From Chryseobacterium sp. FH2 (lineage in GTDB: Bacteria; Bacteroidota; Bacteroidia; Flavobacteriales; Weeksellaceae), in assembly GCF_001045455.1 (NCBI RefSeq), contig NZ_LFNE01000014.1, positions 1 through 64,000 of the forward strand: a stretch of 64,000 bases of DNA, written 5' to 3'. Shown here piece after piece: positions 3,730-48,770 of the stretch (positions are counted from its first letter, which is position 1; each line of letters opens with the position of its first letter). The translations under genes and the position numbers were made by a program. The notes under the pieces are model-generated. The model was not told the DNA's origin. It worked only from the letters and a program-made list of their open reading frames with translations, and searched no databases.

Positions 3730-6700
3730 CTATTTACCACCTGATTTTGTAGAATCTGTTTTTATTTCAACTTTTGATTCAGCTGTTTTTTTATCTTTTT
3801 TGTTCTTTTTAAACAAAGAATTGAAGCTCTTAGTCCATACCACCCCGCCTCCATAGGCTTGATTTGCAGAACCATTTGTTCCTGCTCCTGCAAGGCCCAT
3901 ACCAATGTTTGTAGGTTTAGAATATCCTCTTAGAATTAATCCTCCGTCATTCTTTCTGGAAACGTCATATTCTATTGAGCCTTCCCCCGATAGGTAATTA
4001 GCTTCTGTAGCCTCTGTTTTCGTCAAAGGAATCCCCAAACCTGTTTTCACTTTTATCCTTGGCGAAACAGCAAAGCTTACTCCCGCATTAGCCCTGTCTC
4101 CGGTATTTGAATATTGATCTCCTTTCACATAATTCAGGTCAATCTGAAACTCATTACTCATCGTATTAAGAACCGACCCCAATTGTTTTAAAAGCAGATT
4201 ATATCCAGAAGATTCTGCAACGCCTGCAACATCCACTTCAACTCCACCCGAATTAGAAACATTAAAGCTACTCAAAAGCAAAACAGAACCAAACTGAAGA
4301 ACTTTCTCCCCCTCCTGGCTCATTTTAGAAGCCAACGTCTCTTTTACCTGGCTGGAAACATCCATTGCGGTAAGATTTAAATCTACTTTAGGATCCGTAA
4401 GGCTTTGTGTAATATTGGCCTGTAATAATATACTGATTGGCTGTATACTTCCCATGTTCAAATACTGTCCTGCATTTGAAACCATTCTTATGTAATTGGC
4501 CGTTATATCAAGAGCAGGTTTCATAGCATCACCGTCCCAACGAATACTGCTTCCGTTCTGAATCTGGAAAGTTTTATTAAGGATTGCTTTAGAAACGAAG
4601 GTTCCGTTATCAACTTTATAGGTTCCGTTCATAGCAATATTTCCTTGCCTGTTCATTTGAAATCTTAGATTATTGGCAGTACCTTTTACAGTAATATTTC
4701 CTACATCATCACCTACAAGAACATTTACCGTCGTACCTTTATCAACGTCAAGATTGAAATCGATATTCATATTGGCCCCGCTTTTTTTCTTTTCTTCAAG
4801 GGTAATTAAACCGTCTTTACCCTCTTTTAAAAATCTTAACATCTTAAATTCTTCAACATTCGAAGTCGACCCCGAATTGAAAGTAAATGTACTTCCATTA
4901 AGCGCCTTCATATTAGGTGTTGAAATATTTAAAGCAGAAACCGGCCCGTCTACGTAGAGATCCCCCTGTCCGTAAACTCTTCCCCAGAACAAATCAAAAT
5001 CTTTCTGAGCAGTATTCAATACCAGTAAATTATCAGCTCTCATTACCAGGTTGACCCCCATTGATGAAAGTGTTTCAAACTGTATTGCCCCGGAAATGTT
5101 TCCATTTGAATTGGATCTTCCGTCATGTACTTCGATATTGTTAAGGATTGCCAATCCTTTTGATAAAGGAATAACTGTATCACCAAAAGAATAATCAACT
5201 CCCGTAAATAAAAGTTTTAGCCCAAATCCCTTTAAAGAAACATCTCCACTGTAATCAAGATCATTAAATTTTCCTGTTATTTTCAGGTCTCCGGTTGCTT
5301 TTCCTCTTAGATTTCCAAAAATAGTCTGTACAAACTGCTGGGCAAAGGCAACATCAAAATCCCGCATTTCTGCCGTCAGATCAATTACAGGTGTTGGTGT
5401 ATTATTATTAACAGTTCCCGTGACATGCAGGTTATTATTTCCAATTATTCCTGAAGAAGCAACTTTTATATCAATATCATAAACATTTAACGAAAAACTA
5501 TTGGTTGCGGAAACGGTAATATCACCCATATCATTTCCGTTCATCGTGATATCATCAATGGTCAAATCAACCAAAGGCTGAAGCGTGCTTTTATCCATTC
5601 TGATTTTAACAGAACCATTAGCCAAACCTTTAATGTTCATTCCGTTTCCTCCGGATTGCATTTCTAGAAGTTTTTCAATCGCAAAATCTTTGATATCTGC
5701 ATCTACATAAAAGTCTTTCGCATTTTTAAAGTCAGCTTCATTGATCAACAATGCACTATTATCTGAATAAATCCTCAGATTTCGAATTTCAAAATCACTT
5801 TTATTCTTTCTGTACGTAATAGAATGATCCAATTCAGGACTTGTGTCAATAGCCCAAACAACATCATTGAATTTAACTTCGGTAGGCTCAAATCTAAAAA
5901 CATAATCCCCTACTGTGTTGGTTGTCTGGTTGACATTGATTACATATTCTTTCAGCTGATCTTCGGAAGTATCTTCTGTATTTCCATGTTTAAATTTAGT
6001 AGCCAAATGAAGAATACTGTTGTTTTCATTTCTTCCACTCAGCGTAAAATCTTTGAAAACATTTTTATTGTAGACAACTTTGCCAATTTTCGCATACAAC
6101 TGTTCATCAAGATTAGCTGTATTTATTCTTACCATGACACTGTCAACCATCGCACTGTCTCTGGTAACTTTATCTCTAGTATCTATTTTATAATCAGGAT
6201 TTGCGGCAGCTAAAGCCTTATCCGCTTCGGTAATTTCCTCTTTCTTGGTCATTACATACTTTAACGTTGTAGCATCAAGATTTAAAATTAAATTATTCGA
6301 GTTTCCATCATATTCACCCTCCACTTTTGCACCTTGAGGTAATTTTAAATCAGGTAGGAAATAGCTTACCAAACCCTGCTGAACATCAAAATCCATTTTA
6401 AAACTCTGCCCTCTGTACAATTTTCTAGGCGGTGGGCCAACCAAGATTTTACCTAAACCATTTTCTACCATTCCGGCTAAATCGGCCAGATTATATCTTC
6501 CTGAAATTTTACCGCTTGCAGCTCCAGGAGCATCAACATCGATAACGCGGCTTCCTCCTTCAACAAAAGTTTTTAGCTTAGCATTGGGAATAATATATTT
6601 TTGAGTAGCTGTCGCAAAATTGATATTATTTGCTTCAACATCCAATGTCAAATCGTTAATAGAAGACATGGCCATTTTACCAACCACCTTTCCGCTTACA

Positions 6701-29332: not shown

Positions 29333-30331
29333 ATGAAAAACAAACTATCAACATTAGGATTTGTATTTGTATCAATTCTTTCATTTGCTCAAGTAGGCAT
29401 TAATACATCCAATCCACAAAACACTTTCCACATCGACGGAGCAAAAGATAATCCAGCTACAGGCACTCCCTCAGCAACAGAACAAGCCAATGACTTTATC
29501 GTAACAAGCACCGGAAGTACAGGAATCGGAACTAACGCACCAGATGTTTCTGCGATTTTAGACATCACTTCACAAAACAAGGGGATTTTAGGCCCCAGAA
29601 TCAGCCTTACATCATCTACAATGCAGCTAAGTGGTAATCCGAATGCGACAGGCCTGCTAATTTATAACACAGGGCCTGTACTGAATCCCGGTTATTATTT
29701 CTGGAATGGAACGGAATGGAGGGTCTTCAACACCTCATCAGGCGGCGGGGGCGGTACAACAAATATTGCAACTGTTGAGAGTATCGCAGTAATGGGGCCA
29801 TTAACAGCTACCACAGACAACGGAAGAGCCGGATACGCCATTTCCATCAATACTCCTGACGGAAAATTTTCCGTACGTTGTTTTATACCTACAGGTACTG
29901 CATTTGCAGATGTAAATTTACAAATCAGAAACAACAGCTCATCTACAGTAGACATCATTTCAAACGGACATTATTTATGGTCCGGAGCAGGTGGATATAT
30001 GCAAAACCAATTAAGACTACCTGCCGGAGCGTGGGCCGGAGACAATGCTACCTCCAGCCAAGCGCTTATAGATGCCACAATCGGAGCAAGAATACAAACC
30101 GCTTCAACTAATCCCTACTGGGCAGATCCTGGAGTATACGCAGGAGGCATGCCTGAACAAAGAATCTATTCCTGGACAACCAACGACGGTGCTGACAAAT
30201 CTTTCTACAAAATGTATTTCATGATGGGCTCATCCACTCCCGCAAGCATAGGGAATGCAACAACATGCCCAGCAGGAACCTGCTCAACCACAAAAGCATT
30301 TTTTACTATCGATCAGATTACCGCACCTTAA
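29333..30331 (+). CDS. Secreted protein with VGIGT-type repeat N-terminus
   Basis: A 332-aa secreted protein (signal peptide 1-19, ending SILSFAQ). The mature start [20 protein letters not shown] is near-identical to that of the 31657 protein. A second repeat ([16 protein letters not shown]) follows, and [19 protein letters not shown] resembles a common flavobacterial cell-surface module. A Gly-rich linker near residue 135 leads to a C-terminal domain with a Cys pair ([11 protein letters not shown]). No T9SS sorting domain is evident. VGIGT repeats occur in tail-fibre-like and adhesin-like proteins, so a surface role is inferred. Confidence 0.8.
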
Positions 30332-30373
30332 AACAAAATTTTTGAAAATTTATATGACAATTAAAAAATCAAA

Positions 30374-30398
30374 GGAGTATTTCAATACTCCTTTTTTT
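30374..30398 (+). terminator. Terminator of the 29333 gene
   Basis: GGAGTAT/ATACTCC with loop TTCA, extended by AAA/TTT, followed by seven T. A strong rho-independent terminator. Confidence 0.9.
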
Positions 30399-30565
30399 AT
30401 TGAGATTCTTAAGATTCTTCAATCTCTAATTACCCATTTACCACGATAAAAAACCTTTTAATATTTTGTTATTTTATGAAAAATTAACATATATAATTAA
30501 AAAATAGTTGTAAATTTATACAGAACTAATATAAAAATTCATGAATCACCTAACCACCTATTATT

Positions 30566-30958
30566 ATGAAAAAATTATTACAATTAATTACCATGGGACT
30601 CTTTGTCCTTTTTGCAGTAGCGTGTAGGCACTCTAAAGAAGCAGAAACGGTAACCAGCACTTCGATAGCCGACACTGAACCTAAAGATGTCATAAAAGAC
30701 GTTTTCACAGACGAAGACGGGGCACAGATGGAAGTTTCTATCAACAATACAGACAATACCGCAATCATACACTTGGAAGGCAAAACCTATGAACTGAAAA
30801 AAAGCAGGGAGCTTCCTGAATACACTGCCTCAAATGCTGAATATCAATATTCAAACATAAAAGGAAGAGTTACTTTCTTAAAGAAGGACTATGATATGGT
30901 AATGTTTCGAAACAAAAAAGATCAACCTTCCGCTTCCAGCAAAATGGCTTCATACTAA
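30566..30958 (+). CDS. Lipoprotein, possibly MliC-like lysozyme inhibitor
   Basis: A 130-aa lipoprotein (lipobox FAVAC, Cys20). The second half (AIIHLEGKTYELKKSRE, then YSNIKGRVTFLKKDYDMVMF) follows the layout of MliC/PliC-type inhibitors of C-type lysozyme, whose core is x-L-x-G-x-x-Y-x-L ... A-x-Y ... F-x-x-K. The conserved Cys of classical MliC are not obvious, so the call is tentative. The META lipoprotein gene begins 29 bases later; MliC and META domains are often neighbours or fused in Gram-negatives, which supports it. Confidence 0.55.
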   Translation: MKKLLQLITMGLFVLFAVACRHSKEAETVTSTSIADTEPKDVIKDVFTDEDGAQMEVSINNTDNTAIIHLEGKTYELKKSRELPEYTASNAEYQYSNIKGRVTFLKKDYDMVMFRNKKDQPSASSKMASY

Positions 30959-30987
30959 ATGTCTTTACCAACCCATATTAAATAACT

Positions 30988-31416
30988 ATGAAAAATTTAT
31001 ATAAATACCTGACAATCACCATTTTAGCCGTGTTTTTAAGCTCTTGTGCTAATAAACCTTCATCTCCAAGCAATGATATTACCGGAAAAACATGGAAACT
31101 TACTGAACTAAACGGTAAACCCATCATCCTTAAAAACCCTAAAAGCAATCCTTATTTCAAACTTAACATGTCTGATATGCGATATGAAGGAAATGGTGGC
31201 TGCAATGGAGTTGGCGGGACATTTGAAATAAAACAAGATATAATGCGAATCAAGTTTAATCAGGGGATGTCTACAATGATGGCCTGTGAGGATTTGGATA
31301 TCGAAAACGCATATGTAAAAGCTTTACTTGCCGCAGACAATTATTCGGTAAACGGGAATACTCTTACTCTGAACAAGGCGAGAATGGCACCTTTAGCAAA
31401 ATTTGTTTTACAATAA
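30988..31416 (+). CDS. META-domain (HslJ-like) lipoprotein
   Basis: A 142-aa lipoprotein (lipobox LSSC, Cys19). Residues 30-140 form a META domain: TGKTWKLTELNGKPI at the start, then YEGNGGCNGVGGTFEI and FNQGMSTMMACEDLDIENAY, the conserved G-CN and T-M-AC signatures. HslJ-like proteins are heat-inducible or linked to resistance to toxic compounds; their biochemical role is unknown. It forms a short unit with the MliC-like gene. Confidence 0.9.
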   Translation: MKNLYKYLTITILAVFLSSCANKPSSPSNDITGKTWKLTELNGKPIILKNPKSNPYFKLNMSDMRYEGNGGCNGVGGTFEIKQDIMRIKFNQGMSTMMACEDLDIENAYVKALLAADNYSVNGNTLTLNKARMAPLAKFVLQ

Positions 31417-31526
31417 TATAATCCTGAATAAAACACATCATCATAAAGAGCGTTTTTGTAATATACAGAGGCGCTTAATTTATATACTTCAGCATTTAAT
31501 CGGTTTAAAATAAAGTATATTGAATA

Positions 31527-31562
31527 TAAAAAAAGCTTCTATAATATTATAAAAGCTTTTTT
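31527..31562. terminator. Bidirectional terminator between converging genes
   Basis: AAAAGCTT (31531-31538) and AAGCTTTT (31553-31560) with an inner TATAATATTATA stem and A/T flanks. It serves the META gene and the converging 31657 gene. Confidence 0.8.
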
Positions 31563-31656
31563 ACTCATCTAAAAACAGCAGCAACAAAAGAGCGCAAAAA
31601 AATATTAAAGCATTCTTTTTCTACATCTATAAAATAAACTTTCTCTTTTTTTTGTG

Positions 31657-33003
31657 TTATTTAATTGCAGTTGCATATATTGAGCTTTCGGACCACGTAC
31701 CTCCAAAACTTTTGATAATGGTCGTAGCAACAGGACTACCTCCTACAACTGTATTACCTACAATATATCTGTATGTTTTAGGAGCATTAGTTTTATTTTC
31801 AATAAAAACAATACCCTGAGCCACATCAAATTGTTGAGAGTGTCCAGGCGAAGCCGGTCCTTGTACTTTAAAACTCATTAATGAGGGTGATTTCACATCA
31901 GGAGACTGTGTAGCCGTACTTCCTAATGCCGGATTTCCTTCTCCGAAAGTACTTCTAACAAACATCCAGTCATCTGTATCTAAAATCCCAACCACTTGGG
32001 TAAGCTGAGTAATAGTAACTGCCCATTTTCCCGGTGGCAATGTAATAGATCTTCCTGTATATCTTAAGGTCATAACTCCCGCAAAAGGAATATCTATTCC
32101 TGCACCTGTTATAATATCTCCTACCACAGTTTCAGAAGCCGGAGTTTTCCATTCTGCAGTACCATTACTGTCAGTAGCAGTCAATACCGAACCTACAGGA
32201 ACTGAACCGCCCGTTGCATTTTCAAATCTTCTTGTACCAATAGCATGGAAATTAGCTTGTGGATTTGTAGTACCCACGCCTACTCTGCCATTCTTGTTCA
32301 ATGTCATCAATGCATTTCCGTCAGTGGGAACTCCTGCAAAAAGCTGTAAAACATTTTGAGCTGCTCCAAATCCATAAAAGTCATCTCCGGCTACACTGTT
32401 CCAGATCGCCAGTTTTTTCCCCGCAGATGTTCCTAAATCCAGCAAGTTGTTTGGCGTAGTAGTACCAATTCCAACATTTCCTGTTTCTGAAATTCTTATT
32501 CTCTCTCTTCCGGAAGTACTCAACCTTAAATCTGTTGATATATTACTTCCGTCACCCTGATAGTACGAAGTAATCCTCGACCCGCTGGTATAAATATAAT
32601 TATTATTAACTCTCGGGATAAATGTTACAGCCCCTATCGGATCATCTTTGACTAAATTTGTTGGTGCTGAATAAGTACCATTTGCTCCTGTAAAATAAAT
32701 TGCAGGCAATTTAGAAGTTCCAAATCCTCTAAATGTAAAATCATTTATTGATCCTTCACCTTGATTATCCGCCACTATTTCAAATTTAGCCGCAGGATTT
32801 ATTGTCCCGATGCCAACATTCCCATTTTTGAGTACTACAAAATCATTTGATTGTTGAGCGGAAGTAGGAACTCCTGTAAGGACATTATCTTTTGCTCCGT
32901 CTACATGAAAAGCACCCTGAGGGTTAGCTGTGCTGATTCCAATTTGGGCAACTGCCATGCCAGAAAGCGTCATCATAGACAATATTAAAATGCTTTTTTT
33001 CAT
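31657..33003 (-). CDS. Secreted protein with four VGIGT-type repeats
   Basis: A 448-aa secreted protein (signal peptide 1-20, ending SGMAVAQ). Four copies of a short module can be read: IGISTANPQGAFHVDG (21-36), VGIGTINPAAKFEIV (63-77), VGIGTTTPNNLLDLG (177-191) and VGVGTTNPQANFHAIG (241-256). A serine/glycine-rich linker and a C-terminal beta-rich domain follow. The first module closely matches the 29333 protein, so the two are paralogs encoded on opposite strands 1.3 kb apart. Such modules are known from fibre-like surface proteins. Function not known. Confidence 0.8.
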   Translation of the reverse strand: MKKSILILSMMTLSGMAVAQIGISTANPQGAFHVDGAKDNVLTGVPTSAQQSNDFVVLKNGNVGIGTINPAAKFEIVADNQGEGSINDFTFRGFGTSKLPAIYFTGANGTYSAPTNLVKDDPIGAVTFIPRVNNNYIYTSGSRITSYYQGDGSNISTDLRLSTSGRERIRISETGNVGIGTTTPNNLLDLGTSAGKKLAIWNSVAGDDFYGFGAAQNVLQLFAGVPTDGNALMTLNKNGRVGVGTTNPQANFHAIGTRRFENATGGSVPVGSVLTATDSNGTAEWKTPASETVVGDIITGAGIDIPFAGVMTLRYTGRSITLPPGKWAVTITQLTQVVGILDTDDWMFVRSTFGEGNPALGSTATQSPDVKSPSLMSFKVQGPASPGHSQQFDVAQGIVFIENKTNAPKTYRYIVGNTVVGGSPVATTIIKSFGGTWSESSIYATAIK

Positions 33004-33090
33004 TTTTTCCAGTGTTTGTAATATTTATTTATACTCTAGTTTTTTTGATAATCTATTTTTAAATCATCCGGTTTTATTGAATTGTTAGGT

Positions 33091-33137
33091 AAAAAATAAC
33101 AGGGTTGGCTGTGAAAGCACTTGCCCTGTTATTTTTT
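33091..33137. repeat. Palindromic intergenic repeat, copy 1
   Basis: Perfect 14-bp arms AAAAAATAACAGGG (33091-33104) and CCCTGTTATTTTTT (33124-33137) with a 19-base loop that itself can pair GTG/CAC. It lies 88 bases upstream of the 31657 gene start. The A/T flanks let it terminate in either direction. An imperfect second copy follows 136 bases away. Confidence 0.7.
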
Positions 33138-33226
33138 TACATAAACAACTCATTTTTTTTCATCTATCTGTTTTTAATGTTCCGAGGGAAAGGAACAGTC
33201 AATTATCATTTCCATTCTGTTGCAGT

Positions 33227-33273
33227 GTAAATAACAGATTGATTGTGGGAACACTTTCGCCCTGTTATTTTAC
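33227..33273. repeat. Palindromic intergenic repeat, copy 2
   Basis: GTAAATAACAG pairs with CTGTTATTTTAC, with one bulge. Its right side CCCTGTTATTTT and the phase AATAACAG match copy 1, and the flanking TTTCAT...AATGTT also recurs, as in an old tandem duplication of about 136 bp. On the minus strand it could also encode a decayed protein end (SVIYTATEWK, stop) resembling the SSIYATAIK end of the 31657 protein. Confidence 0.55.
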
Positions 33274-33970
33274 ACAACACAACAAAATTTTCATATTGTG
33301 TTTATTTTTAGAATGTTGAGGTTAATCGGCTGCAGTAGCTGCCATAAAATTTTAGTGACAATTTTAAAGTTGTCTTCAAAATATTAACCTGGCAATGTTT
33401 TTCTGGTTTGCGCTCATCTTATTTTTCATTTTTTTAGTGTTTAAATATTAATTATTCATCTACATGTTTTCAACCCTAAGCTATCATTAGACTGACAGAC
33501 TTTAATTGTTTTTTAAGATAAATAACCAACTTGTTTTACATTTTAAAATTTCATTTGGGAATTGTGTTTCTAGAATCGTTATCTTTTACAGTAAATCAAG
33601 ATTCGTCTTTTTGGTAAAGCAATACTCTTTAAAAATTCAATAATTGTATTCATTTTCTTTCAATATAAATTTTAGTGTCTGACTAATTTTTTTTAATTTC
33701 CTGAACAGTTTCTTACACTTGTTTTCCAAAGTTATCCGGAACTGTATCGTTCGTGAAACTTCGTTGCAAATGTAGAACCAATACCGCAAAAAAAGCATAC
33801 TGCAAAATCACTTCAACGCCATAAAATACTATAAAACAACATCTTAAATAAACAACAACAGTAGATATGAAGTATAGAAAAAGAAAGAAAACATTCTATA
33901 AAATGTAGAGTTATTATCAAAAAAGAAGCAACATCATTTTTTTGGCATACCTGAAAAAAAGATAATAAAA
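33274..33970. other. Intergenic region, about 700 bases
   Basis: No credible gene in either strand. A TACATTTG element on the minus strand (33767-33774) could drive a very long leader for the 31657 gene or a small RNA, but no TTG lies at the right spacing. The rest is AT-rich without clear structure. Confidence 0.45.
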
Positions 33971-34228
33971 TTATGATTTTCTGAAGATCATATAACAAAT
34001 AAGCAGGGATACATTAAGAAGTACGGCAAATGAGTTTGATAAAATGATAGGAAGCTCATCTTTTATGAAACCATACCAGACCCATAAAGAAAGACCAGAA
34101 ATAAGAACTAGAAGCATTAACCAAGAGATATCATCTACATTTTTCTTCCTCAAAACTTTTACAAGCTGAGGAACTGAAGCTGCAGAAGTAAGCGTACCCG
34201 CAATGATACCTAAAATACTTTCGTTCAT
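33971..34228 (-). CDS. SemiSWEET-type sugar transporter
   Basis: An 85-aa protein with three membrane helices: residues 3-22, 36-54 and 62-80. The PQ-loop signature SAASVPQLVKVLR is in helix 1. SemiSWEETs are half-size relatives of SWEETs. They work as dimers and move sugars down their gradient through the inner membrane. The length is exactly typical. It stands alone, and no sugar-use genes nearby suggest the substrate. Confidence 0.93.
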   Translation of the reverse strand: MNESILGIIAGTLTSAASVPQLVKVLRKKNVDDISWLMLLVLISGLSLWVWYGFIKDELPIILSNSFAVLLNVSLLICYMIFRKS

Positions 34229-34643
34229 CGTTTAATATTTGTTCAAAATTATAGCTTTAATATAAGAAATTTTGCAACATCAAAATAAAGTATTTAATAA
34301 TTAAATTTTCTAAAAACATTTCTACAATCTGCAGCTTATCATTTTAAAATGAATATCATATATCAATTTTGAAAAATTATCAAAAAATTATCAATATGTA
34401 TAAATAAAATACACGTAATATTATTTAATTTTATAGAATTATAAACAAATCAAAATTACACTCAAATGCAAAAGTAGGGAATGAAACAAACAGAAAGTAA
34501 TTTAACCCTTTAATAATCAAATTATTAAAACAACAAAAACACCTTGTTTATATTAAGAATAAATACATAATAATACAATTAAAATATTATATTTACATAA
34601 TAATGTGGATAAAATTTAATTTTGCAAACTAAAAGACGCAGAT
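34229..34643. other. Intergenic region, 415 bases, with promoter of the TPR-LuxR gene
   Basis: AT-rich with no gene. TAATTTTG at 34617-34624 is a good -7 element 20 bases before the start codon at 34644; no TTG at the proper distance. Nothing else recognised. Confidence 0.45.
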
Positions 34644-36062
34644 ATGTTCCCAAATCCTTATTTTAAAAAAGCGTTATATGCTCTGTTAATATTATTTATT
34701 GCAAAATTTTCTGCACAGACATATTCTATAAAACAGCTTGACAGCTTGACAGAGAAATACCGAATTGACGGCGATATCAATAAAAGTATTGAACTCAATA
34801 AAAAAGCTCTGCAACAATACCAAAAACAAAATGACAAACATGGTATCATTGCCACCCAAATCAATATGGGGGGGCTTTTGTGGTTTCTTCATAAATATAA
34901 AGAAAGCCTGGAGTATCTGGAAAGTGCAGAAAATAATCTGAGAAAGATTAAGGATTTATCACTGTGCGCTAAGCTATATGGTGAATACGGTAGAAATTAT
35001 GCTTCTTTGGGGCTTTTGCAGCAATCGAACACTAATTTGGACTGGTCAATTATTTTTGCAAAAAAAATAGAGGACAGAAGAGAACGTGAAAAACTTCTTT
35101 ACTTTTATTACACGTGGAAACTTGCTAATTTTGAGGAGCTCAAAAAAATTGATTCTATTAATTTTTATCAAAAAAAACGTCTCGAATTAACTGCCCAGCC
35201 TCTTACCTTTGTGCATATTGCAGAAAAACATCTTAAAAATAATGATTTGGACACTGCTGAGTATTACCTTAACAAAGCTTTAGAACTTACCGGGGATTTT
35301 AGCCTTTATCAAAGATCCATGACTTTATCAGCTTATGGTAAACTCTATACACAAAAACAAGATTATAAAAAAGCATTAAATTATTATTTACAGTCTCTTG
35401 CTATTTCTGAGCAACTTTCCCGAAAAACAGATATTAAAAGTACTTATAAAGCCATTTCAGACACCTATAAACAGCTTAATGATATCGAGAAAAAGAATGA
35501 ATACCTGGAGAAATATTCCGATATAAAAGACAGTATTGATCAATCAGAAAGAGAAGCTCTCAGCCTTCCTATTGACAAAATTATTCAGGAAGAAAATCAA
35601 AAAGAACAGAAAGAAAAAATAAAATATATAGGTTTGGCTTTGGCAATAGCTACAATATCTATTGTTACGATTTTTTTATTGGTAAGAAGACATCTGAAAA
35701 AGCAAAAGCAAACTGAAGAAATAATCATTGAAACCTTGCATGAAACCGGTGAGCTTAAAGTAAAACTTAATGAAGCCTTTGAAGAACTGTCGAAACTTGC
35801 CATGACAAATGATCCTTTTTTCCTTACCCGTTTCAAGGAAGTATATCCTGAATTTTATGAAACTCTTACCACCAGGTATCCCCATCTTACGGCAAACGAC
35901 ATTAAGTTTTCTGCATTTTTGAGATTAAATCTTTCTACAAAAACGATTGCTCAATACAAAAATATCTCGGTAAGAACCATTGAATCCAGAAAATACCGAT
36001 TACGAAAAAAATTAGACCTTGCTTCAGATGTTGACCTTAATAAGTGGATGATGGATTTATAA
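34644..36062 (+). CDS. TPR sensor with C-terminal LuxR-type helix-turn-helix
   Basis: A 472-aa membrane regulator. It has a signal segment (residues 9-25), then TPR-like helices over about 30-300 (for example NDKHGIIATQINMGGLLWFL, DYKKALNYYLQSLAI), a transmembrane helix near 324-345 (IGLALAIATISIVTIFLLV), a coiled linker and a LuxR/GerE-like DNA-binding end (LTANDIKFSAFLRLNLSTKT, then ISVRTIESRKYRLRKKL). The design parallels the AraC-type sensor at 17459. Stimulus and targets are unknown. The candidate structured RNA lies directly downstream, past a terminator. Confidence 0.88.
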   Translation: MFPNPYFKKALYALLILFIAKFSAQTYSIKQLDSLTEKYRIDGDINKSIELNKKALQQYQKQNDKHGIIATQINMGGLLWFLHKYKESLEYLESAENNLRKIKDLSLCAKLYGEYGRNYASLGLLQQSNTNLDWSIIFAKKIEDRREREKLLYFYYTWKLANFEELKKIDSINFYQKKRLELTAQPLTFVHIAEKHLKNNDLDTAEYYLNKALELTGDFSLYQRSMTLSAYGKLYTQKQDYKKALNYYLQSLAISEQLSRKTDIKSTYKAISDTYKQLNDIEKKNEYLEKYSDIKDSIDQSEREALSLPIDKIIQEENQKEQKEKIKYIGLALAIATISIVTIFLLVRRHLKKQKQTEEIIIETLHETGELKVKLNEAFEELSKLAMTNDPFFLTRFKEVYPEFYETLTTRYPHLTANDIKFSAFLRLNLSTKTIAQYKNISVRTIESRKYRLRKKLDLASDVDLNKWMMDL

Positions 36063-36088
36063 AATCTGTTTAAAAATTCATTTTACCG

Positions 36089-36118
36089 AAACCTCTAAAT
36101 TTTTTTAGAGGTTTTTTT
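36089..36118 (+). terminator. Terminator of the TPR-LuxR gene
   Basis: AAACCTCTAAA (36089-36099)/TTTAGAGGTTT (36104-36114) with a 4-base loop and a T run. It ends the regulator's transcript, so the structures further on need their own promoter. Confidence 0.9.
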
Positions 36119-36213
36119 GAATTATTTATATAAAAACCTAATTTTTCCAGTACTTAAAATTCACTTCAAAATTTATATAAATATTTGATAACCAATTATT
36201 TATACATACTAAG

Positions 36214-36257
36214 TATTTTTGCAGTAATGGATTATTCTAAAATTGACCATACATTTG
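36214..36257 (+). promoter_or_regulatory. Candidate -7 elements ahead of the structured intergenic region
   Basis: TATTTTTG at 36214-36221 and TACATTTG at 36250-36257 both match TAnnTTTG on the plus strand. Neither has TTG at the consensus distance (the nearest spacers are 26-28 bases), so these are weak promoter candidates. Confidence 0.35.
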
Positions 36258-36315
36258 TACCATCATTCTCAAGTTAGTATAAAACACAAGTTTTGTTCCC
36301 TGATAAGGATTCAGT

Positions 36316-36350
36316 GAGTGAGCATACAGGCGACAATAAAATGCTCACTC
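36316..36350 (+). other. Intergenic hairpin
   Basis: GAGTGAGCAT (36316-36325) pairs perfectly with ATGCTCACTC (36341-36350) across a 15-base loop. It has only a short T tail. It may be the first domain of the RNA proposed for 36432-36652 or a separate terminator. Confidence 0.45.
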
Positions 36351-36431
36351 ATTTAAGAAATAAGATCCGATTAGTTTATAAATTTACTTATTATTTTATG
36401 TTTGAAATAATATTATAATAATAAGTAGATT

Positions 36432-36652
36432 GAAATAGGAATGTAAATGCCTTTTGGAAATTCATCCCGTTCCAGCGGTGTTTGCATCCTATTTTTTAAC
36501 AAAAAAAATGTAAAAATTTAATTATTAATAATAAGGGAAGTAGAAATGCAAAAGGGACTAATATATAGAATTCATCCCGACTTCATTAGTCCCGTTTTGC
36601 TTTCAAATTAAATTTTAACTTGAATCACCCTGTTTGCAGGGTGATTTTTTTG
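36432..36652 (+). ncRNA. Candidate structured RNA with twin hairpins sharing an apical sequence
   Basis: No gene lies here. Hairpin 1 (36432-36495): arms 36433-36451 and 36477-36494 pair over 18 bp with one bulged A and three G-U pairs, then TGGAA/TTCCA closes an apical loop. Hairpin 2 (36543-36604): arms 36543-36562 and 36585-36604 pair over 19 bp with two bulges, and GAA/TTC can close its loop. The stems differ in sequence, yet both loops contain AATTCATCCCG (36459-36469 and 36569-36579), exactly 110 bases apart. A strong terminator ends the block, and T tracts favour the plus strand. Different stems around a constant loop suggest RNA function. No known family recognised. Confidence 0.45.
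36623..36652 (+). terminator. Strong terminator closing the twin-hairpin region
   Basis: AATCACCCTG/CAGGGTGATT with loop TTTG, followed by a T run on the plus strand only. Since no plus-strand gene lies between 36062 and here, it implies an untranslated transcript. Confidence 0.85.
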
Positions 36653-36754
36653 TTTACAATAAATTTATTATACTTATAATTTTTCAATTTAAATGTTAAA
36701 ACTTGTATTCTGGACAACCTTAATCTGAGTTTTATGTTTCTCTGCTTCAATTTG

Positions 36755-37789
36755 TTATTTAAATCTATCCAATGAAATCTCCTCTTGCAAAGGGATATCT
36801 TTTTCTATAAAATCATATAAACTTTTAGAAAAATAGCAGCCATTCAGAATTCCTCTCGCCCCTAAACCGTTAAAAACATAAAAATTATTATGTTCAGCAT
36901 GCCTTCCAATGATGGGCCTTCTGTCTTTCACCGTAGGCCTGAATCCAAAATTCACCTCGCTTATTTCAAAATCGTAAGGATAAATTTCAGATAAACCCTT
37001 TATAAGCTGATCTACAGCAGAATCATCTATATGATGGTGAAGCTGCTCCCTATCATAAGTTCCGCCATAAAAATATAAATCATTATTGGCAGGGAAAAAA
37101 AAGTGTTTTTTCTTAATTGTAATATTTTGAAAAACCCCTGTTGAAAGTTTTACTTTAATGTGATGCCCCTTATTTGGATTTACAGGAATTCCGGCAAAAA
37201 ACGGATTTCCGATAACTCCCATTCCTTCACAAAAAATTATATTTTTAAAATTAAAATCCTTATAAGAAGATTCAGCAATATCAATTTTAGAATAATCAAA
37301 CTTTTCTCTAATTAATTTTGAAGTATTTTCAAAATAATTGAATAAACCAGTGAAAAACCCATTAACATCTAATCTGGCAGATTGATTTACCTTTCCAGTA
37401 TTAAAGTCGTTTTTTACCACCTCTAAATGAGCAAAATTTTTATCTAAAAAATTAATAAGTTCATTATTTTCTGATTTTTTCAGCCAGAGCTGTTGCTCAT
37501 TTTCATCATGAAAAATTCTGTGAATAGGAGCTTCAATTAGATAATTCTTTCCTGTGTAACTTTCAATTTCTTTTAAAGAATCTCGTAAAAAATCAATTTG
37601 TTCCTGGGCTTTCCAAAATGTAGTAAATTTTTTCAATACCACAGGGTTTATAATTCCCGCAGAAACCTGGGACGCACTCTTTCTTTCTTCAGAAAAAATC
37701 ACAAAAGATTTCTCATTTTTTATTAATTGATGTGCAAAGAAAAGCCCTGCATATCCATCTCCTACTATTATATAATCTACTTTTTTCAT
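36755..37789 (-). CDS. FAD-dependent oxidoreductase (DAO superfamily)
   Basis: A 344-aa flavoprotein from MKKVDYIIVGDGYAG (37789); a frame to 37858 would overlap the gldN end. The dinucleotide-binding motif is GDGYAG near residue 10. The substrate-domain part shows FCEGMGVIGNPFF and PVNPNKGHHIKV, and the C-terminal FAD contact is VFNGLGARGIL. This is the D-amino-acid-oxidase-like fold, which oxidises amines or amino acids. The exact substrate is unknown. Only 8 bases separate its start codon from the gldN terminator, so it may depend on read-through from the gld operon. Confidence 0.85.
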   Translation of the reverse strand: MKKVDYIIVGDGYAGLFFAHQLIKNEKSFVIFSEERKSASQVSAGIINPVVLKKFTTFWKAQEQIDFLRDSLKEIESYTGKNYLIEAPIHRIFHDENEQQLWLKKSENNELINFLDKNFAHLEVVKNDFNTGKVNQSARLDVNGFFTGLFNYFENTSKLIREKFDYSKIDIAESSYKDFNFKNIIFCEGMGVIGNPFFAGIPVNPNKGHHIKVKLSTGVFQNITIKKKHFFFPANNDLYFYGGTYDREQLHHHIDDSAVDQLIKGLSEIYPYDFEISEVNFGFRPTVKDRRPIIGRHAEHNNFYVFNGLGARGILNGCYFSKSLYDFIEKDIPLQEEISLDRFK

Positions 37790-37797
37790 AAATAAAA

Positions 37798-37823
37798 AAA
37801 CCTGAGTAAAAGTACTCAGGTTT
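37798..37823 (-). terminator. Terminator of the gldKLMN operon, abutting the next start codon
   Basis: AAACCTGAGTA/TACTCAGGTTT with a 4-base loop; the minus strand continues with a T run directly into the ATG at 37789. No room remains for a separate promoter between them, which suggests partial read-through or attenuation. Confidence 0.85.
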
Positions 37824-37845
37824 TGTATAAATATCAAGTGAAATC

Positions 37846-38784
37846 TTAGTAATTCCACATATCATTTTCCATTTGAAGAATTTGCTCCTTAATTCTGTCG
37901 CTTTCCTCCAATTGTTCGTCAGCATTTCTAGGAATATAATCTTTGATAGTTCCATCTCCTAAACCGCTTGAAGACTTATAAATGATTGAAGAGAATCTTC
38001 TTGCATTGATAAGGTCATCGAAAGACAAATCAGCTGATGAATTTTTTCTGTTATACACAAAATTGTTCGCTAAAATATCTCTTGCACTTGGATAATAGAT
38101 CCAGAATAAGTCAATAAGCTCATCTGCTCCAGCCAAAGGCTGCCCGTCTGGTCCTGTTCTACCCTGTACAGCAGGATCCGGCCCCATAGCAGCAAGACCC
38201 AAAGGTCTGTACTTCATTTGCCCGTCTCTCTTATCGATAAACCACATACCCATAATTTTAAGAACTTTTACTTTATCGGTAGTTGTCTTGAAAATATCAG
38301 TATATTCCTTTTTCTCCTGTTCAGTCAATTGTCTTCCAGAGTTAAGGATATCAATAGCAGCATCAGAAACTCTTACACTTTCCAATCTCTTCTGAATTCC
38401 ATCCGGAGAAAGTTTAGTTACAAAGTTTTCGTCATCATATACTTCCTGGATTTTACCAGTAATTGCTGCATCTAATAATAATTGGTATAATGATCTTGTT
38501 TGAGTAGCCAATAAACCATCTGGATTATCATAATAGAATGGTTGGTTGATCTTATCATTCATATCAATGATTTCCCAAACAAACATACTTTTTAAGATAT
38601 CTTTATCATCAACAAAGCCATATTCTAAAGGCTTCACGGTTTTATCAATAACAGTGTCTCCTACTTTCTGTTTGTTTTCCTCTCTCATTCTTCTGAACTC
38701 TTCCGGAGAAGATGCATTCAAAATAGTCTGGGAAAATACAAACCCTGAAACTAATACTAAAAGACTGCCTATATATTTTTTCAT
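37846..38784 (-). CDS. gldN: Gliding motility/T9SS protein GldN
   Basis: A 312-aa periplasmic protein (signal peptide 1-19, ending GFVFSQ). GldN and GldK form the ring under the outer membrane that belongs to the T9SS core complex and, in gliding species, to the motility apparatus. Typical parts are MFVWEIIDMNDKINQPFYY, VLKIMGMWFIDKRDGQM and IYYPSARDIL. Last gene of gldK-gldL-gldM-gldN, 24 bases after gldM, and followed by a terminator. Order and lengths match the operon in other flavobacteria. Confidence 0.95.
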   Translation of the reverse strand: MKKYIGSLLVLVSGFVFSQTILNASSPEEFRRMREENKQKVGDTVIDKTVKPLEYGFVDDKDILKSMFVWEIIDMNDKINQPFYYDNPDGLLATQTRSLYQLLLDAAITGKIQEVYDDENFVTKLSPDGIQKRLESVRVSDAAIDILNSGRQLTEQEKKEYTDIFKTTTDKVKVLKIMGMWFIDKRDGQMKYRPLGLAAMGPDPAVQGRTGPDGQPLAGADELIDLFWIYYPSARDILANNFVYNRKNSSADLSFDDLINARRFSSIIYKSSSGLGDGTIKDYIPRNADEQLEESDRIKEQILQMENDMWNY

Positions 38785-48122: not shown

Positions 48123-48177
48123 AAACACCAAATCACAAAATATTAATATGAAAAAAATTTACTTTTCAGTAAACTTG

Positions 48178-48250
48178 TGACCCGGCTGGGATTCGAACCC
48201 AGGACCCATACATTAAAAGTGTATTGCTCTACCAGCTGAGCTACCGAGTC
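48178..48250 (-). tRNA. tRNA-Lys (TTT), copy 1
   Basis: A 73-nt tRNA. The minus strand begins GACTCGGTAGCTCAG; the acceptor GACTCGG pairs with CCGGGTC and the discriminator is A. The anticodon arm ATACA/TGTAT holds loop CTTTTAA with anticodon TTT. The T loop is GGTTCGAATCC. CCA is not encoded. Its own promoter and terminator flank it. Confidence 0.98.
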
Positions 48251-48305
48251 GGTCACTTTGTCAACGAAATACATTTTAAAAATGCCTTTCATTTTTTAAG
48301 AGATG

Positions 48306-48334
48306 CAAAGATACATTATTTTTTGTTCCTGCAA
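48306..48334 (-). promoter_or_regulatory. Promoter of tRNA-Lys copy 1
   Basis: On the minus strand TTG (48334-48332), an 18-base spacer and TATCTTTG (48313-48306) fit the flavobacterial consensus. It lies between the terminator of the upstream tRNA unit and copy 1. Confidence 0.8.
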
Positions 48335-48351
48335 AATTTATTTTTAAAAAT

Positions 48352-48376
48352 CAAAGGCTTCTTGCGGAAGCCTTTG
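48352..48376 (-). terminator. Terminator of the tRNA-Lys/tRNA-Leu/tRNA-Lys unit
   Basis: Perfect CAAAGGCTTC/GAAGCCTTTG with loop TTGCG on the plus strand; the minus strand continues with ATTTTTAAAAA. Confidence 0.88.
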
Positions 48377-48431
48377 AAACACCAAATCACAAAATATTAA
48401 TATGAAAAAAATTTACTTTTCAGTAAACTTG

Positions 48432-48504
48432 TGACCCGGCTGGGATTCGAACCCAGGACCCATACATTAAAAGTGTATTGCTCTACCAGCTGAGCTACCG
48501 AGTC
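48432..48504 (-). tRNA. tRNA-Lys (TTT), copy 2
   Basis: 73 nt, identical in sequence to copy 1, anticodon TTT. It is last in a unit that begins with copy 3 and tRNA-Leu, ending at the 48352-48376 terminator. Confidence 0.98.
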
Positions 48505-48581
48505 GGCCACAATTGTAATGATAAATATAGAATTAAATCCTAATTAATCATACGAATTATTTTATTTTTTTTTCTGCAGTG

Positions 48582-48664
48582 TGCCTGCGACTGGACTCGA
48601 ACCAGCACATCCTTAGGAAACCACCCCCTCAAGATGGCGTGTCTACCAATTTCACCACGCAGGC
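48582..48664 (-). tRNA. tRNA-Leu (GAG)
   Basis: An 83-nt type II tRNA. The acceptor GCCTGCG pairs with CGCAGGC; anticodon arm CCATC/GGTGG with loop TTGAGGG, anticodon GAG. The variable arm is long and the T loop is GGTTCGAGTCC. It lies between two tRNA-Lys genes, 33 bases from copy 3, and is probably co-transcribed with both. Confidence 0.97.
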
Positions 48665-48697
48665 AATAAAATTACAAATCCAGTAATTTCTTGCTAG

Positions 48698-48770
48698 TGA
48701 CCCGGCTGGGATTCGAACCCAGGACCCATACATTAAAAGTGTATTGCTCTACCAGCTGAGCTACCGAGTC
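48698..48770 (-). tRNA. tRNA-Lys (TTT), copy 3
   Basis: 73 nt, the same sequence as copies 1 and 2. First gene of the Lys-Leu-Lys unit, 53 bases after a consensus promoter. This copy has no private terminator. Confidence 0.98.

Follow-up and report, generated by a model that had tools for sequence, protein, structure and literature searches.

The window analysed here comprises the first 64,000 nucleotides of contig NZ_LFNE01000014.1 of Chryseobacterium sp. FH2, read on the forward strand, and the locus of interest lies between two of its protein-coding genes. The plus-strand gene at 34644-36062 codes for a TPR protein that ends in a LuxR/sigma-70-region-4-like HTH, as judged from its open reading frame and Pfam matches (TPR_12, 7e-17; Sigma70_r4_2, 3e-4, and GerE, 5e-4, the latter two under their curated cut-offs); the protein also shows a weak match, far under the cut-off, to the NCBIfam model of the SusR regulator. 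This gene is the 5' neighbour of the RNA proposed below and is set apart from it by a terminator-like site at 36088-36118 (plus strand). On the other side, outside the RNA, is a convergent minus-strand gene (36755-37858) for an FAD-dependent oxidoreductase of the DAO family (Pfam DAO, 8.5e-24), beyond which lie open reading frames that we take to be gldN, gldM and gldL. Elsewhere in the window, at 48177-48770 on the minus strand, there are four tRNA genes, three tRNA-Lys(ttt) of equal model score with one tRNA-Leu(gag) among them.

The region between the two protein-coding genes contains two long plus-strand hairpins, B1 (36432-36495) and B2 (36543-36604). Both had been proposed in the initial annotation and both fold at these positions, each with the 11-mer AATTCATCCCG at its apex; the two plus-strand copies of this 11-mer (36459-36469 and 36569-36579) are spaced by exactly 110 bases, as had been claimed, whilst shuffled windows contain on average 0.02 exact 11-mer matches. 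The segment spanning both hairpins (36425-36610) has a fold z-score of -4.9, with none of 200 shuffles folding as well, and the longer segment 36200-36660 has a z-score of -7.8 (0 of 100 shuffles). A covariance model, R2, built from 17 hairpins of other genomes with the window hairpins left out, recovers B1 with 48.9 bits (E 2.9e-8) and B2 with 30.6 bits (E 2.9e-4), the next-best match in the 64-kb window having an E-value of 0.94; the E-values of such covariance models are rough. The statement that the two stems share almost no sequence holds for the upper stems, which differ freely, but not for the stem bases, which are paralogous (UAGRAAUGYAAA on the 5' side and UUUGC on the 3' side) and are matched by one model; when that model is built with both hairpins included, B1 and B2 score 55.6 and 54.5 bits, respectively. 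The RNA also extends past the segment in which it was first noted (36432-36604), gaining a conserved leader, a further hairpin, A, and an AT-rich stem. Hairpin A (AGTGAGTGAGCAT...ATGCTCACTCATT; 36313-36353, plus strand) is found both in the fold and by RNAalifold on 13 loci, where it comprises 11 pairs, seven with a double change, and a covariation term of only -0.04 kcal/mol. The AT-rich stem folds directly 5' of B1 (36381-36431, plus strand), and stems resembling it sit before a B hairpin in several relatives.

These elements are placed here in a proposed plus-strand RNA of ~390 nt (36264-36652), for which the fold z-score of -7.8, a promoter-like leader, a terminator and a bias of G-U over A-C pairs provide the evidence. 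The 5' end at 36264 is deduced from a -7-like box, TACATTTG (36250-36257, plus strand), which is conserved in the leader alignment and fits what we take to be the Bacteroidota -7 consensus, TAnnTTTG. Located 5' of this box is a TTGCAGTAA element (36219-36227, plus strand), conserved with variants in the leader alignment, which could possibly be an activator site; the exact TTGCAGTA occurs in five of the seven loci that were fetched by means of the TPR protein. The same alignment reveals CACTTCAA (36162-36169, without strand assignment), which partially repeats the TTGCAGTA site in near-inverted orientation, and the corresponding position in 12 aligned leaders reads (C/T)ACT(G/T)CA(A/T) in seven and TACTAC in the other five. 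Together, CACTTCAA and TTGCAGTA (36162-36227) form near-inverted half-sites 5' of the RNA promoter, of which TTGCAGTA is well kept in relatives and CACTTCAA only partly (7/12 leaders). It is a guess that CACTTCAA might act as an operator and equally, from gene position, that the adjacent TPR-HTH regulator might control the RNA promoter.

At the 3' end, the strong terminator previously placed at 36623-36652 was found as an intrinsic terminator at 36622-36652 (plus strand), with a stem of 11 pairs (36622-36647) followed by a U-run. No plus-strand gene had been seen between 36119 and it, in agreement with which no plus-strand open reading frame of at least 60 aa is present from the TPR gene to the terminator. 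The longest ATG-started small open reading frame within the RNA encodes 25 aa. Coding was considered as the source of the loop repeat and rejected, since the spacing of 110 nt is not a multiple of 3 and puts the loops out of frame, and the small reading frames do not exceed 25 aa. As the terminator-like site at 36088-36118, the promoter-like leader, the hairpins and the terminator at 36622-36652 all lie between two genes, an independent transcript of ~390 nt is likely, and the window RNA is probably free-standing.

When 148 Chryseobacterium genomes, including the strain's own, were searched at the DNA level, 11 others yielded matches of at least 64 bits to the leader or the hairpins (any match at E 0.001 was found in 37, mostly short). 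From these, 19 B hairpins of 11 genomes and the window were aligned (alignment A1), with the exclusion of five of the 24 listed folds (L019, L026, L029, L032 and L033) that are not in a B-type hairpin. Covariation had been put forward as the check on both stems and RNAalifold on A1 provides it, with 17 pairs, 14 of which have compensatory double changes. Paired cells amount to 92.0% in A1 versus 79.7% in shuffles and double-changed cells to 38 versus 11.9 in shuffles and 2-10 in slid controls, related sequences being counted several times in these pair counts, and none of 500 shuffles reaches any of five covariation measures. A larger alignment, A2, was assembled from 34 model matches and is biased towards the model; some of its matches are weak and at least one comes from the opposite strand. 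Its double-changed cells number 57 versus 5-16 when slid. Cells with G-U number 22 versus 3 with A-C in A1, and 33 versus 13 in A2, and the plus strand gives the more stable fold in 21 of 28 cases. The large excess of G-U (22) over A-C cells (3) identifies the plus-strand RNA as the selected molecule.

Within the apical 11-mer, conservation is focused on a heptamer, TCATCCC, found at 36462-36468 (plus strand) in B1, where it is unpaired in the minimum free energy (MFE) fold, and at 36572-36578 (plus strand) in B2, where its first two bases are paired in the MFE fold; both copies are kept in relatives. Across 22 intergenic segments (17.3 kb), TCATCCC occurs 28 times and is present in 20, the exact heptamer being absent from the other two, whilst dinucleotide shuffles of these segments contain it 0.5 times on average and four times at most, and its reverse complement does not occur in the 17.3 kb. 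Twelve downstream segments, 11 picked by DNA similarity and one (L084) by the model, account for 19 of the 28 copies, with one or two in each; the upstream-array segments were picked by model matches, a selection that favours the heptamer. In the MFE folds, 24 of the 28 copies are wholly unpaired. The shorter TCATCC is found at 33 sites in the 22 segments, 30 of them in folds below -12 kcal/mol and three in weak folds, and the 30 well-folded sites read TCATCCC in 28 cases, TCATCCA in one and TCATCCT in one. By comparison, the base 5' of the heptamer is T in 13, C in 13, G in three and A in one, and the base 3' of it G in 13, A in 11, T in four and C in two. As these flanking letters vary among relatives, selection holds seven loop bases and not the whole of AATTCATCCCG. 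The original argument, that a loop which stays constant while its stems change is what a functional RNA would show, is thus supported by loops that read TCATCCC in 28 of 30 cases, by neighbours that vary and by stems that covary; relatives in which the loop varies freely whilst the stems decay, the pattern that had been named as contrary evidence, were looked for and the opposite was seen.

The hairpins belong to one homologous locus with a restricted distribution. At E 0.01, the covariance model R1 matches 16 of 146 genomes of the genus (own included), from which G003, whose heptamer is paired in its hairpin, and G044, whose match overlaps the end of an open reading frame and has no TCATCCC loop, were dropped. 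With G301 and C. gambrini (L091) added to 13 genomes from R1, ~15 other Chryseobacterium genomes possess the hairpins, which in these relatives adjoin the same regulator gene or the position it formerly held; the genome counts of the different searches overlap, as some loci stem from the same genomes. Searches under strict filters, which lose weak matches, returned four of 197 genomes of the family, all in the genus (33 genera covered), and, using R2, one of 196 genomes of the order, the window's own (72 genera covered). When loci were fetched by the TPR protein alone, a TCATCCC hairpin was found within 1 kb in all seven with an identity of at least 59% (C. populi, C. sp. JUb7, C. limigenitum, C. 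daeguense, C. soldanellicola, C. polytrichastri and C. gambrini), most of these genomes being already among those found in the genome searches, and in none of the 28 TPR loci below 59% identity. Viral sequences gave 28 matches to a degenerate pattern and none to the model at E 1.

A second array of long hairpins is present in several relatives, where it follows two small HTH genes and precedes the TPR gene; among the folds listed, usually one of its hairpins carries the heptamer and the others have different loops. Arrays of this type are found in L070, L071, L072, L073, L075, L076, L077 and L080, 5' of the TPR gene or of the site that it would occupy. An array has at most four long hairpins, many of them followed by a U-run, and a linker like TTCATAATATTAAGTAA often separates them; their stem bases are similar and their loops differ, with TCATCCC in only some. 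In the window, the region 5' of the TPR gene (30000-36000) gives no outstanding match. The two small HTH genes before the arrays are exemplified by L070:2038-2496 and 2520-2870 and their orthologues, and relatives of the second are present in 95 of 98 genomes of the genus, often in many copies, some seemingly broken by stops. L080 and L081 yielded no intact TPR gene, and in them the arrays come after the HTH genes. In L080, a stretch at 4099 (reversed strand) reads like a TPR gene remnant and, as the hairpins are still present, the RNA seems to have outlived the gene there. Second TPR-HTH genes directly follow the RNA in L073 (5855-7273) and L078 (4996-6456), and in L091 a gene for a secreted VGIN-type protein does so; these differing following genes suggest that the RNA locus is modular.

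No known RNA class had been recognised at this locus from its sequence, in keeping with which an Rfam scan of the window reports five tRNAs only and no match at the gathering threshold here; a relaxed Rfam 15 scan of 36060-36760 gives sau-6072 as its best match, with 25.1 bits (gathering threshold 50), on the terminator. Among the matches listed from the literature on Chryseobacterium, Weeksellaceae and other flavobacterial/Bacteroidetes RNAs and on multi-hairpin RNAs, there is no description of this RNA. The family appears to be new, its kind, with many hairpins and one loop seed, being known from other phyla. The layout of several hairpins with a constant unpaired motif on variable stems is that of the alpha-r14/cuckoo RNAs of alphaproteobacteria, among which CcsR shares the CCUCCUCCC motif with alpha-r14, and it is found here in another phylum. 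In PMC10746234, alpha-r14 (NfeR1 of Sinorhizobium meliloti) is described as three hairpins with an identical ultraconserved unpaired motif and highly differing stems; that motif, CCUCCUCCC, by which members are recognised, is an anti-Shine-Dalgarno sequence, whereas the Chryseobacterium loops carry UCAUCCC. The four sRNAs CcsR1-4 are described as sharing a transcript with a gene for a small protein (PMC10746234, PMC10253847). Given the shared layout, the Chryseobacterium RNA may work likewise without being a member.

Further parallels can be drawn with LhrC, Rfp18 and FopS/GibS. The study PMC4132741, in which Rsm/Csr is also mentioned, presents LhrC of Listeria as a multicopy sRNA with redundant UCCC-bearing seed sites, two of three in loops, and a seed that binds a G-rich stretch 5' of the lapB start codon. 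The LhrC seed is CUCCC/UCCC, in two loops and a linker, and here UCCC lies inside the AUCCC of the loops; structure and phylum differ between the two. Rfp18 of Flavobacterium psychrophilum, according to PMC9723704, has several stem-loops, one of which is predicted to pair with all predicted targets, and its deletion lowers two protease mRNAs; as a flavobacterial sRNA with several stem-loops it could be a relative of the Chryseobacterium RNA. FopS/GibS of Bacteroides, an sRNA family whose shared seed blocks initiation near start codons, consists of separate sRNAs of ~65-70 nt that carry this seed towards their 5' end, and not of a loop motif on variable hairpins (PMC11697453).

With confidence only slightly better than even, we favour the interpretation that the locus encodes a free-standing multi-hairpin regulatory RNA whose UCAUCCC loops are a putative seed for mRNAs. 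A contact site is the best account of a heptamer that is kept and mostly unpaired, has free neighbours, sits on compensated stems and is repeated in one RNA, and a seed is preferred over a protein decoy because alpha-r14/NfeR1 and LhrC, built on the same plan, act by seeds. By this analogy, the RNA most likely acts in the manner of these trans-acting sRNAs, whose several hairpins carry copies of a single loop seed, with the difference that the seed is another and the phylum is the Bacteroidota. We infer both transcription of the RNA and the role of the loop in mRNA pairing. Transcription would be driven by the RNA's own promoter 3' of the TPR-LuxR-type regulator gene, and each B hairpin would display UCAUCCC open in the apical loop of a rigid, freely evolving stem. 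The seed could then pair with several mRNAs bearing GGGAUGA-like stretches, resulting in a block of translation or a change in stability, and the presence of several hairpins would permit redundant action or the engagement of several targets at once.

Target searches covered part of one genome and distant relatives, a scope in which a small target set would escape. GGGATGA has 360 sites in the strain's own genome versus 142 for the reversed pattern, a difference that codon use can explain. The 100 sites listed, with others in the stretches of sequence analysed, give 122 readings (108 distinct), 82 of them in the sense of an open reading frame, 30 antisense and 10 intergenic; three of the 122 lie near gene starts, as defined by simple calls of open reading frames, compared with 2.9 expected by area, and hence there is no enrichment. 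One GGGATGA site spans the start codon of a secreted VGIN-type gene. Such genes were rejected as targets, GGGATGA being found around the start in none and GGATGA in one of 30 relatives, a weak test in that the best identity was 46%. An extended target, CGGGATGAATT, was also considered, and the 11-mer itself has six sites in the genome, four of them outside the locus. At L032 and L033, the longer open stretch has the orientation of the loop sequence, and at L034 and L035 it has that of the complement, or target sense, the sites lying ~240 and ~910 bases inside a stop-to-stop stretch. The strain's own 16S rRNA gene (L208) holds the complement of the heptamer within GGGATGACGTCAA; the 16S rRNA was discarded as a target, as the varying loop flanks do not extend this match, which is probably a coincidence.

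Because GGGAUGA, the complement of UCAUCCC, contains AUG, it is conceivable that the loops cap start codons, in which case the RNA would be a Bacteroidota counterpart of the anti-Shine-Dalgarno sRNAs. The Bacteroidota make little use of Shine-Dalgarno sequences. The neighbouring arrays, with other loops on similar stem bases, would then form an exchangeable set of seeds. This special form of the seed interpretation is lowered by the lack of enrichment near starts among the sites examined, and we consider it decidedly unlikely.

The most serious alternative to an mRNA seed is that the UCAUCCC loops bind and titrate a regulatory RNA-binding protein, as do the loops of CsrB and RsmY, in which a GGA motif is repeated on variable stems and the partner is CsrA. 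The heptamer UCAUCCC of the Chryseobacterium plus strand is without GGA. A sponge would be laid out in this way, with copies of a short loop motif on variable stems; its flanks may vary and its stems need only be stems. Against a decoy, we know of no protein with a specificity for UCAUCCC, and one or two heptamer loops per downstream segment (12 segments) are few for a sponge. RRM proteins of the Bacteroidota such as RbpB bind sRNAs (PMC11697453), and a decoy retains an appreciable probability, well short of even. The hairpins might instead serve solely to terminate transcription or to insulate convergent or tandem genes from one another, their loops having no function, a proposal that accords with the U-runs behind many B hairpins and with the position of some next to the convergent oxidoreductase gene. 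It leaves unexplained a heptamer kept in 28 of 30 hairpins between free neighbours, and B2 of the window has no U-run and a separate terminator behind it; we therefore regard it as unlikely.

An element that acts as folded single-stranded DNA, in the manner of REP, attC or IS200-like sites with transposase-like HTH proteins as partners, would account for the upstream arrays that come after two small HTH genes in several relatives, and several weak matches of these small proteins, all under the curated cut-offs, are to transposase HTHs. Nevertheless, 22 G-U versus 3 A-C cells point to selection on one RNA strand, the retained model matches are all at one syntenic locus, and no TCATCCC lies within 900 bases downstream of the second HTH gene in the 16 loci that could be read of 24 others, leaving a DNA element very improbable. 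Two copies alone could represent a recent duplication with drift, but chance or a leftover repeat is refuted by the covariation, the heptamer counts, the loci fetched by protein and the test with the left-out model, and is scarcely credible.

Few sRNAs of the Flavobacteria have been characterised and, in our view of the field, how targets are chosen where Shine-Dalgarno sites are not used is an open matter. The RNA described here offers a repeated and nearly invariant seven-base contact site in environmental Chryseobacterium strains, for which one set of loop mutants could tell mRNA binding from protein binding. The findings further suggest that an arrangement known in alphaproteobacteria and partly in Listeria, with many stems bearing one motif, is present in the Bacteroidota.
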